Shown here: positions 10,076 to 13,417 of the stretch, one piece after another
How positions within the stretch are numbered: position 1 is the first letter of the stretch
How the letters are laid out: each line of letters begins with the position of its first letter
Source: Candidatus Scatomonas pullistercoris
Lineage (GTDB): Bacteria; Bacillota; Clostridia; Lachnospirales; Lachnospiraceae
DNA: 64,000 bases
NCBI GenBank assembly: GCA_018713515.1
Contig: DVOO01000013.1
Coordinates: forward strand, 1 to 64,000
Reading direction: 5' to 3'
Notes under the pieces: model-generated
What the model was told of the DNA's origin: nothing
What the model saw: only the letters and a program-made list of their open reading frames with translations
The model's database searches: none
Made by a program: the position numbers and the translations under genes

Positions 10076-11830
10076 TCAGGGTTCTATGTAAACGGACTTC
10101 CTTCCTTTTTTTATTTTCATAAAAATCGGGATAAGGCCCAGACCTGCACCCGCGAGAGCACCGAAGACCCCTGGAGACAGCCAGGCGTCCTCTCTTTTGC
10201 CCGCCATCCCCCGCAGCAGAAAGAGCCGTCCGTTTCCGGCCGCGTCCACAGCGCGAACCTCCAGCGTTCCTCCGGGATCCGGAGGGAGAGAGACATAATA
10301 AGAGTCTCCTTCCTGCCGGAAGGAAAGCTGTTCGCCCCCGCAGCAAAATTCCACCTGCTTCAGCAGGAAATTATCCTGTATCCGAAAATGTTCAGAATTT
10401 TTTTCTTCCGGTACAAGCCGCTGAATCAGCGGTTTCACCCGGTCCAGCCAAAAGCTTAAAGGCTTCTCACGGAAAAACAGTTCACTTTCATTGCTGTTTC
10501 CGGCTTCATCTTCCGAGCGGAACAGAAAGGCATAGACTCCGTCCGCTTCAAAAACCCCGGGGGACACTGCATACTGATAGCGGCTGCCCTCCGCCGTTTC
10601 CTCCTCAACCACGGTGTAGCCGCCGCCTCTTTCCAGCTGCCGGGACACACCGTTTCTGACCATCCACACTTCTATCGTCTCCTCCCGCAGACGGTCAATA
10701 TTTTCTTCTGTCAGCAGAATCTCCGGGGGCTCCGCCGTATACGCTCCGAGAACCCTCTCCAGCTCTCCGCTGACCGCGTACCGGGAGCCGCTGCGGTTAA
10801 CGGTAAAGGACGCCTCCGCCGCACTGATATTTCCGGCCAGATCCCGCCCCTGCACACGCAGCGTATAAAAATCATCCTGCCCGGGAAGGTTCTCAAGCTG
10901 AAAGCATAGTTTTCCCTCCTCCGCAGCTGTCTGCCGGTACTGGATGTGCACTTCCCCTGATTTTCTTCCCTCCAGGGCCATTGTGACAGCCCCGCTGTCA
11001 ATGGCCCGGTCTTCCACTGTAATCAGCGGATTTCTGCTGTGCGGATCCAGGGCTCTGCCGTCCGTCTCCGTGACCGCGATGGAGGGGGCTGTCCGGTCCA
11101 GCGTAAAAGAATCCCCCACCGTATACCGGGTTTTGTTTCCCGCCCGGTCCTCCGCGGAAACAGAAAAACTGTAATCCCCTTCTTCGTCCAGAAAGAATTC
11201 CGCCTGCATCCCCGCCTCCGTTCTCTGCCAGGCCGGCGGCAGGGGGAGCCCCTGTACAGTAATCTTTTCCGGCGTGAGATTCCTGTCCCGGACCTGCAGA
11301 AGGTATTTCTGCGGTTCTCTCCGGTATTTTCCCTGCCCCTCCGTCTCCAGCAGCAGCTCCGGAGCCGACCCGTCCACAGCCAGATAAATGCTCCTCCAGC
11401 TCTCTTTCCCGTTCTGCTCCTCCATTCCCACCCGCAGCATGATTTCCTGGGATTCTTCCAGGATCTGCAGCTGTTTTTCCGCCTTTATCACGGCCCCTGC
11501 CTGCTGTTCCAGAACCGTAAAGCCTGCCGCGCCTGCCCTGCCCGCATCCGCAAAATCCGCCCTGCCGCTTTCCAGAATCCGGCTTCCCTCTGCCTCCACC
11601 CTCCAGGTTACTTTGGCAATTCCCGATCCGGGGGCAGAAAGCATGACGGTCACCCCGGCCGAACCCTGATACAGATCTATTCCCTCCTCCGTTCTGCCCT
11701 CCGGCTCTCTTCTTTCAAATTGAATCCCCGCCTCTGCACTGCCTGCTCCTCCCAGAAGCAGACAGATGCCTGCCGCGGCCAGACAGCCGGCCAGCTTCAC
11801 TGTCCCCCGGTTTCCTTTTTCCCTTCTCAA
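10076..11830 (-). CDS. exported single-pass membrane protein with Ig-like segments, unknown role
   Basis: The protein has 584 residues. Start TTG at 11828-11830; its AGGAGG site lies inside the last Gly codons of the upstream kinase gene. An N-terminal signal peptide has hydrophobic residues about 13-32. The long extracytoplasmic part has several beta-rich repeats resembling bacterial Ig-like domains, each with an A-x-D-x-A-G-N-x-like turn (E-D-R-A-G-N-K, R-D-L-A-G-N-I, E-D-E-A-G-N-S, D-A-A-G-N-G). A C-terminal membrane helix (about 553-572) is followed by a basic stop-transfer tail. I recognise no enzyme domain. Close linkage to the kinase suggests the two form one envelope-sensing or surface-assembly module; this is inference. 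Confidence 0.8.
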
Positions 11831-11833
11831 TTT

Positions 11834-13417
11834 CTATCCTCCTCCCGCCGCGATCTTTCTCTCCCTGCTGATTTCTTCCAGCATCTGCCGTTCCCGGCTG
11901 CTTCCCGGCTCCAGCTTTTCCGCTGCCTCCCACAGCCGATCCAGAAACAGTTCCTGTTCCTCCCGGGATATGCCTTCCAGTTTGAGAGCCGTCTGCCAGA
12001 TCCTGACGGTACGGAAACAGAGTCTCAGCAGCTCCAGGCGCTCCGCTCCCACTTCCTCCCGGGACTGGGCCTCCAGTTCCTGCAACTGTTCCCAGAGCTC
12101 GCGGATGTTTTTCTGTTCTGTTCCTTCCCGGACCTGCAGCTGCAGTTCCTGAAAAAAATATCCGATCTGCGCGTACCGCTTGGCACTGTCTGCCCATTCC
12201 TCCGGTCCCCCGGAGGCCTCACGGAACCAGGGCGCTGCTGCCCGCATCCGGATCAGCCCATTCTCCTCCCCGGCCGTCTGGCCGTAGCTGTAATAATACC
12301 AGTAAAGTCTTCCGGCCTGATACGCCAGGCCTCTGTATGTGGAAGATCTCTTAAATTCCGGCGTCAGCTGACCGGCCGCCTGCAAAAAGATTTCTTCCTC
12401 CTCCGCGGTAAAGCTTCCGTCTTCCCGGAAAATCTCCAGCAGCAGCCGATACCCTTCCGGCGCATCTCTCCGGAGTCCGACGGCTTTTATGCATGCCTCT
12501 GTCCTGGACTTTGCGCTCCCCGGGCCTTCCGCCTCCCTCAGATACGCCTGATACTGCTTCTCCTCCGCCCGGGCCCCGCGCAGGCCGGCCCCCAGGGCAA
12601 TACCGGCTGCGGCTGCCGTCAGCAGGATTCTTCTCCGCTTTATCCGCTGTTCCTTCCGCTCCTCCTTTCCCTCTCTGCAGGTTCTAAGTGCTCTTTCCAG
12701 GGCTTTGCAGGAAGAAAATCTCCGTCCGGGCTCCTCTTCCATGCATTTCCGCAGAATCCGGGCAAGCCCGGGAGACAGATTTCCCATCCTTCTTTTTTTC
12801 CGGTTTTTCTGCGGAAAGCGGCCGGTCGCCAGACGGTACAGGGTAATGCCCAGGGCATACAGATCCGTACGGGCATCCTGCCGGTTCCCGGGCTGCAGCT
12901 GTTCCGGCGCCGCGTAATTCCGGCTGCCGGCCAGAGAAGGACAGTCGTTTTCCCGTTCCGCAATCCCGAAGTCCACCAGCCGCAGCCGGCCCTCTCCGTC
13001 CAGAATCAGATTGGAGGGCTTCAGGTCCCGGTACAGAACCGGCGGTTCCTGTCCGTGAAGATACTGCAGAGCGTCACACAGCTCACCTGCCCACTTCCAG
13101 ATTCTTCCGGCGTCAAAGGGGCCGTGGCTCTTCAGCCAGGTCTCCAGATTCTTTCCTTTTATATACTCCATAACCAGAAAGATGCCCTGTTCATCCTCCC
13201 ATCTGTCTATAACACCCGGGAATGCCGGATGATTCAGATTCTTCAATATCTCCCCTTCCCGAAATCCTCCGCCGGCATTCCCGGGCCGCTCCGTATACTT
13301 CACCGCTCTTTTCGTGCCCAGCCGCAGATCCTCCGCCAGATAAACGGCAGCGCAGCCTCCCCGGCCGATTCGCTCCAGGATCCTGTACTTTCCGCCTATG
13401 ATCCTGCCTTTTTCCAT
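11834..13417 (-). CDS. transmembrane Hanks-type Ser/Thr protein kinase with helical repeat tail
   Basis: The protein has 527 residues. Kinase domain about 8-260: glycine loop G-R-G-G-C-A-A-V, A-V-K-Y lysine, Y-R-D-L-K-P-S-N catalytic loop (Tyr replaces the usual His of HRD), D-F-G, A-A-P-E-Q, and D-L-Y-A-L-G. A membrane helix lies at about 280-295. The C-terminal half is long, Glu/Leu/Arg-rich and helical, TPR-like, and should lie outside or at the membrane. It lacks the PASTA repeats of PrkC/StkP. No PP2C phosphatase or FHA partner is near, so it is not the usual housekeeping kinase locus. It is coupled to the Ig-like protein gene with a 3-base gap. Confidence 0.88.
   Translation of the reverse strand: MEKGRIIGGKYRILERIGRGGCAAVYLAEDLRLGTKRAVKYTERPGNAGGGFREGEILKNLNHPAFPGVIDRWEDEQGIFLVMEYIKGKNLETWLKSHGPFDAGRIWKWAGELCDALQYLHGQEPPVLYRDLKPSNLILDGEGRLRLVDFGIAERENDCPSLAGSRNYAAPEQLQPGNRQDARTDLYALGITLYRLATGRFPQKNRKKRRMGNLSPGLARILRKCMEEEPGRRFSSCKALERALRTCREGKEERKEQRIKRRRILLTAAAAGIALGAGLRGARAEEKQYQAYLREAEGPGSAKSRTEACIKAVGLRRDAPEGYRLLLEIFREDGSFTAEEEEIFLQAAGQLTPEFKRSSTYRGLAYQAGRLYWYYYSYGQTAGEENGLIRMRAAAPWFREASGGPEEWADSAKRYAQIGYFFQELQLQVREGTEQKNIRELWEQLQELEAQSREEVGAERLELLRLCFRTVRIWQTALKLEGISREEQELFLDRLWEAAEKLEPGSSRERQMLEEISRERKIAAGGG

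Follow-up and report, generated by a model that had tools for sequence, protein, structure and literature searches.

An ordered pair of a membrane kinase and an Ig-like surface protein, related to components of type VII secretion loci, stands alone in a Lachnospiraceae genome

The window, a stretch of 64,000 nucleotides from Candidatus Scatomonas pullistercoris, carries on its reverse strand two adjacent genes, which encode a transmembrane Ser/Thr protein kinase (hereafter D) and an exported Ig-like protein (hereafter I). The features of the locus are listed below.

13467 to 13517, minus strand: terminator-like hairpins between dtd (upstream) and D, from a consensus scan only
11834 to 13417, minus strand: D, transmembrane Ser/Thr protein kinase of 527 aa, relative of TsdD/TseD (Pkinase match, E 1.5e-41)
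12698 to 13387, minus strand: cytoplasmic kinase domain of D, residues 11-240, with YRD and DFG intact
12581 to 12628, minus strand: short hydrophobic membrane segment (D residues 264-279) preceded by KRRR (from sequence; helix 251-297 in the model)
11846 to 12514, minus strand: all-helical tail of D, residues 302-524, predicted extracytoplasmic (from the model, pLDDT mostly >80)
11838 to 11846, minus strand: ribosome binding site of I, GGGAGGAGG, read from sequence, within the last codons of D and 7 nt ahead of TTG
10076 to 11830, minus strand: I, exported Ig-like protein of 584 aa with a C-terminal anchor, relative of TsdI/TseI
11729 to 11830, minus strand: signal sequence of I, residues ~1-34 (from sequence)
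10226 to 11323, minus strand: conserved Ig-like core of I, residues 170-535 (from alignment to giant I proteins)
10118 to 10177, minus strand: C-terminal membrane anchor of I, residues ~552-571, followed by a 13-residue tail (from sequence)

The stop codon of D (TAG, 11836-11834) is followed by AAA and then by the start codon of I (TTG, 11830-11828), so that only 3 nt separate the two genes; this spacing, and the ribosome binding site in the last codons of the kinase gene, had both been noted in an earlier, sequence-only reading of the locus and could be read directly from the DNA. The pair is flanked by genes identified from sequence as dtd (D-aminoacyl-tRNA deacylase) upstream and enolase downstream, and the hairpins that the consensus scan placed between dtd and D suggest that D-I is probably a separate transcription unit.

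Both open reading frames are intact, with the limits that the sequence-only reading had given them. That reading had described a kinase with a YRD loop, a membrane helix, a helical tail and no PASTA domains, paired with an Ig-like protein, and Pfam, sequence and structural model agreed with this description. Pkinase was the sole domain found in a Pfam search of D, PASTA repeats being absent, and against the NCBIfam model PknB_PASTA_kin D scored 165 bits, far under the cut-off of 450. The catalytic residues are all present in the sequence (K40, E54, Y129-R-D131, N136, D149-F-G and P-E), which makes D a candidate active kinase. The YRD loop had been taken for an oddity; it turned out to be the norm of the D kinase family, most members of which have Y for the H of HRD. 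In the predicted structure (mean pLDDT 85) the kinase fold is followed by a long helix, which contains the membrane segment, and then by a helical tail. Helix 251-297 is unbroken in the model, and its hydrophobic stretch, which lies within ~16 residues, scores below the simple TM threshold used and occupies the alignment position of the TM of the relatives. In the tail a YWYYY...N...WF pattern is retained among relatives. Foldseek matches of the D model were dominated by the kinase domain and uninformative on the tail, and PADLOC matches to the anti-phage kinases PD-T4-6 and MAD6 (E down to 5e-52) covered essentially the kinase domain alone.

The closest named matches of the D kinase came mostly from Lachnospiraceae, while the solved structures closest to its kinase domain were StkP, Stk1 and PknB. 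This nearness could mean that D, like PrkC/Stk1, serves cell-wall homeostasis, with I replacing the PASTA repeats, and D does share a kinase fold and a single membrane helix with the PASTA kinases PrkC, Stk1, StkP and PknB. However, it differs from them in having no PASTA repeats, YRD in place of HRD, a helical tail and I as a partner. Also, the genome already encodes a PASTA kinase on contig C26, adjoined by the genome's PP2C gene, and the relatives of D cluster with secretion and pilus genes, so we regard a wall homeostasis role as improbable.

I had been described as an exported Ig-like protein with a single C-terminal anchor, and this was borne out by a signal sequence, by Pfam matches to Big_13 (E 1.7e-13) and Big_3_3 (E 1.2e-6) in an Ig-like region at ~residues 207-344, and by one hydrophobic segment. 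The layout of anchor and short tail is repeated in most relatives with a captured C-terminus. A search of PDB by sequence gave no relative of I, and its predicted structure was poor (pLDDT 48.5); the model was too weak to serve as a clue to identity, its Foldseek matches saying just Ig-like. In most giant I proteins, the stretch that aligned with the best-matching part of window I (~residues 170-535) lay close to the C-terminus, typically stopping 50-200 residues short of it, which suggests that window I retains the membrane-proximal core without the long stalk.

We considered whether I could be an adhesin or wall-binding surface protein, that is an output and not a sensor, with D controlling its display or a colonisation programme. 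Bacterial adhesin repeats were indeed among the top Foldseek matches of the weak I model, C-anchored long Ig-like stalks are typical of surface proteins, and relatives show linkage to Tad pilus genes. Against this, the domain search of I found neither LPXTG nor a recognised ligand-binding domain, and conservation lies in the membrane-proximal core and not in the distal stalk, which fits contact with D better than ligand display. Furthermore, I has no conserved cytoplasmic phosphosite: its basic tail of 13 residues contains a single Ser and a single Tyr but lacks Thr, and tail sequence is not conserved among relatives. We therefore hold it rather unlikely that I is the output, and the phosphosites that the sequence-only reading had proposed to look for in the cytoplasmic tail of I were rejected, the Thr-motif candidates being found in other proteins (H and FHA proteins, see below).

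A lack of linkage between the two genes in relatives had been named beforehand as a result that would refute the pairing. We searched 150 genomes of the window's family genome-wide with I at a match cut-off of E <= 1e-10, and gene maps were drawn from our own ORF picks, with labels assigned by phmmer against Pfam-identified seeds, by family searches or by eye. Matches to I were obtained in 35 relatives. In 28 of them a D kinase encoded on the same strand immediately preceded the match, either adjoining it or with 1-2 small genes in between, and the order, D and then I, was invariable. Four more (G051, G090, G105 and G018) had an arrangement compatible with a contig break, while in the remaining three (G054, G082 and G147) D and I were apart, which counts against the pair. 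Since the search with I was unbiased and genome-wide, the adjacency of D and I is not due to chance, and the earlier guess that the Ig-like protein is a functional partner of the kinase survived this test. The adjacency could be incidental, reflecting merely a shared operon, as expression coupling by itself can hold genes together; but the D-I order recurs at many chromosomal sites, in several machine contexts and in two phyla (D-H-I was also found in Bifidobacterium bohemicum), which makes an incidental pairing very improbable.

The relatives showed D and I in four settings, all with one D family: Tad loci, T7SSe-type loci, F-D-H-I alone, and minimal D-I. In the Tad loci (for example G073, G130, G008 and G099) the order was DUF5702-TadE-A24 peptidase-WG/TPR protein-J-F-D-H-I, where J combines DUF6382 and FHA, F is a PP2C protein, H is a small one-TM protein and I is giant and Ig-like. 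In L142, L144, L148, L169, L172, L174, L198 and L215, J-F-D formed a cassette adjoining Tad-pilus genes, in most cases together with H and I. No T7SS marker accompanied the Tad-linked cassette in at least G073, G130, G008 and G030. Loci of T7SS type with EssC and WXG100 were present in G148 (C3), G058 (C26), G090 and G095, the order in G148:C3 being J-F-D-H-X-I-D2-...-EssC-WXG100. In the T7SSe-type loci L147, L167 and L192 we also observed an additional D-like kinase, a divergent one with an HSD loop and DFN for DFG. These second kinases form one clade (support 100) and sit between I and EssC in L147 and L192. Of the 35 relatives that matched I, 20 had neither WXG100 nor EssC, a count that includes G018 (78% complete).

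The sequence-only reading knew of no described system with this composition; D and I are, however, core components of T7SSd/T7SSe, for which the T7SS passages of a 2024 survey (PMC11217815) list, besides the kinase D (with a membrane helix and a C-terminal region that is helical) and the Ig-like I, also H and K, a phosphatase (F) and an FHA protein (J). I is given there with a signal peptide and a C-terminal TM, and with 1654 aa in Olsenella uli. Of the parts given in those passages, D, F, H, I and J are present in the Tad and T7SS-type loci of the relatives, and by sequence window D and I are homologues of their namesakes in the T7SSe-type loci of sister genera. Like the T7SSd, T7SSe and T7SSj components described in the same passages (TsdD, TseD, TsjD; TsdI, TseI, TsjI; PMC11217815), the window pair has a kinase with a helical C-terminal region, an exported, C-anchored Ig-like I and the order D then I. 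It differs from these systems in several respects. The window locus has no H, F or J; a search of the window genome (97% complete) for WXG100 (PF06013) gave no match, and a search of the same genome for an EssC/TseC-type ATPase gave an FtsK-like match only (3.7e-31). Window I has 584 aa against about 1200-3000, and window D belongs to a divergent branch. With neither WXG100 nor an EssC-type ATPase in the genome, the pair is an orphan. Thus D and I are relatives of T7SSd/T7SSe components, inherited as an ordered pair, and stand alone in the window genome. That no phosphatase lies nearby, as had been remarked, holds at the window locus but not for the family, in which a PP2C gene usually precedes D.

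The window also has the same D and I families as the Tad loci with a J-F-D-H-I cassette; unlike the Tad-linked cassette, its pair, on contig C28, is not beside Tad genes, and the genome's own Tad locus, on C11, carries only a DUF6382-FHA protein and no kinase. According to its T7SS passages, the survey of PMC11217815 was organised around EssC, which puts D-I loci lacking this ATPase outside its reach, and these passages make no mention of D/I-type components at Tad loci. The literature searched, in which the T7SS account of PMC11217815 was the only one to surface on DUF6382 or on Tad loci with a kinase and FHA, held no description of stand-alone or Tad-linked D-I. As far as these sources go, then, D and I as T7SSd/T7SSe components are known already, and the stand-alone or Tad-linked module is new.

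Minimal D-I pairs were present in ~15 genera, placed among housekeeping genes (the window, G062, G058:C17, G121, G069, G142, G081, G010, G133, G025, G027 and others). Some sites recurred, argS-D-I in G142, G069 and G133, and dtd-D-I-eno in the window and its congener G150. In a tree of D kinases, those of T7SSe-type loci, Tad loci and F-D-H clusters were intermingled in one clade, while about half of the minimal pairs fell in a group apart from it. Window D grouped with that of G150 (support 97) among divergent minimal-pair kinases outside the T7SSe/Tad clade, on a long branch which leaves its deep placement unsure; this position counts against the module reading given below. Several minimal-pair kinases have lost the arginine of RD (HLD, HHD, FGD, YQD) or carry DLG or DPG.

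G150 was the only syntenic relative found, its D being ~40% identical to window D. At the dtd-D-I-eno site (L126:4196-7313) this D has an HHD loop and DLG for DFG, and its I stops before the anchor; no frame in the following 100 bases restores it. The G150 pair may have either an altered function or be in decay. A further congener, G151, keeps an F-D-H-X-I cluster with an I of 2158 aa at a different chromosomal site. The persistence of this cluster elsewhere, the shortness of window I, the state of the G150 pair and the long branches in the kinase tree would all suit the view that D-I is what remains, decaying and now functionless, of a J-F-D-H-I cluster that was linked to T7SSe or Tad and has been lost. 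However, both window frames are intact with complete catalytic residues, the window pair does not occupy the site of the G151 cluster, and minimal pairs occur in ~15 genera, about half of them falling outside the T7/Tad clade as described above. The argS-D-I synteny common to several genera also argues that the minimal form is old and not a recent remnant. Decay of a lost cluster is thus an unlikely explanation.

Candidate phosphosites were examined in the partners of D. Motifs of the form [ST]T[VLI][LI] numbered 24 in H against 2.4 in shuffled sequences and 32 in J against 2.9, with no enrichment over shuffled sequences in D, F or I. D-linked J and H proteins carry repeated ETTVL sites, and in D-linked J the Thr motifs are often paired and lie ahead of the FHA domain. 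An ETT[VL][LF] motif sought in the window genome gave 5 DNA matches, fewer than the control and none in frame within an ORF, and was discarded; the lack of such a site in the ORFs counts against the signalling module proposed below. DUF6382 was found in 145 of the 150 genomes. Among 18 DUF6382-FHA proteins unlinked to D (2 of the window genome and 16 of other genomes), 14 carry a single Thr motif of the form T-V/M/I/L-L/Y/F-L/M/F between positions -98 and -109 relative to the C-terminus, where 0.76 would be expected; the nearly fixed position had been seen in the data before the test, which is thus not independent of the choice of motif. Such a nearly fixed Thr motif before the FHA domain could be a GarA-like phosphoswitch, perhaps near-universal in the family. 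The two DUF6382-FHA proteins of the window genome, on C11 (L112:8934-10220) and C26 (L114:9167-9988), both have a linker Thr motif (EKTVYM and DETLLL). The gene on C26 lies beside a TadZ-like gene; no further Tad gene was recognised near this pair of DUF6382-FHA and TadZ-like ATPase (G000:C26:142000-144100, L114:9167-11038). Neither DUF6382-FHA gene is linked to D, which counts against a readout of D by these proteins, and the PASTA kinase is an equal candidate for phosphorylating their linker Thr sites.

Combining these observations, we lean towards the view that D-I is a conserved two-protein membrane signalling module, in which I would sense, D would signal and FHA proteins would read, the sensing and substrate steps being our inference. 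The positive-inside charge (KRRR before the segment of D, KIKK after that of I) would put the D tail and the Ig core of I on the same outer face, and since the conserved part of I adjoins the membrane, as does the D tail, it is simplest to take I for a sensor or regulator of D. Anchored C-terminally, I would stand in the cell wall and might contact the wall, an assembling machine or a neighbour cell. Its Ig core near the membrane would meet the extracytoplasmic helical tail of D and thereby set the activity of the kinase domain. D may then phosphorylate the linker Thr of FHA-domain proteins, or type-H membrane proteins where present, and FHA domains would read the Thr marks. The best candidate readers or substrates in the window genome would be the DUF6382-FHA proteins of C11, in the Tad locus, and of C26, with the TadZ-like neighbour. 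The proposed logic of a kinase marking Thr and an FHA domain reading it has precedents in the PpkA-TssL-Fha phosphoswitch of type VI secretion (PMC3953482) and in GarA, which has ETTS ahead of its FHA domain (PMC12321487); both systems are unrelated to D-I and serve as analogies.

We regard the pair as a probable stand-alone unit for signalling from the envelope to the cytoplasm, one which is probably also used by other machines, including adhesive pili. More tentatively, D-I could be a general transmembrane phosphosignalling unit not tied to one secretion machine, which plugs into T7SSe, Tad pili or an unknown envelope process and has as readers the nearly family-universal DUF6382-FHA proteins with their fixed linker Thr; we put this slightly below an even chance. 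The occurrence of D-I in Tad loci and in relatives without T7SS suggests that in gut bacteria two surface machines unrelated to each other are under the control of a single kinase/FHA cassette, and if the general reading is true, type VII secretion and Tad pili share one phospho-control cassette. The ETTVL repeats and the nearly fixed linker Thr of the DUF6382-FHA proteins offer testable phosphosites, and with its minimal pair the window offers the simplest setting in which to study the step from I to D in the absence of a secretion machine. As a minor observation, five neighbouring small membrane proteins are encoded near a Tad locus (L115:11433-16000), and most of them end in a similar SLEDAL-like acidic motif.
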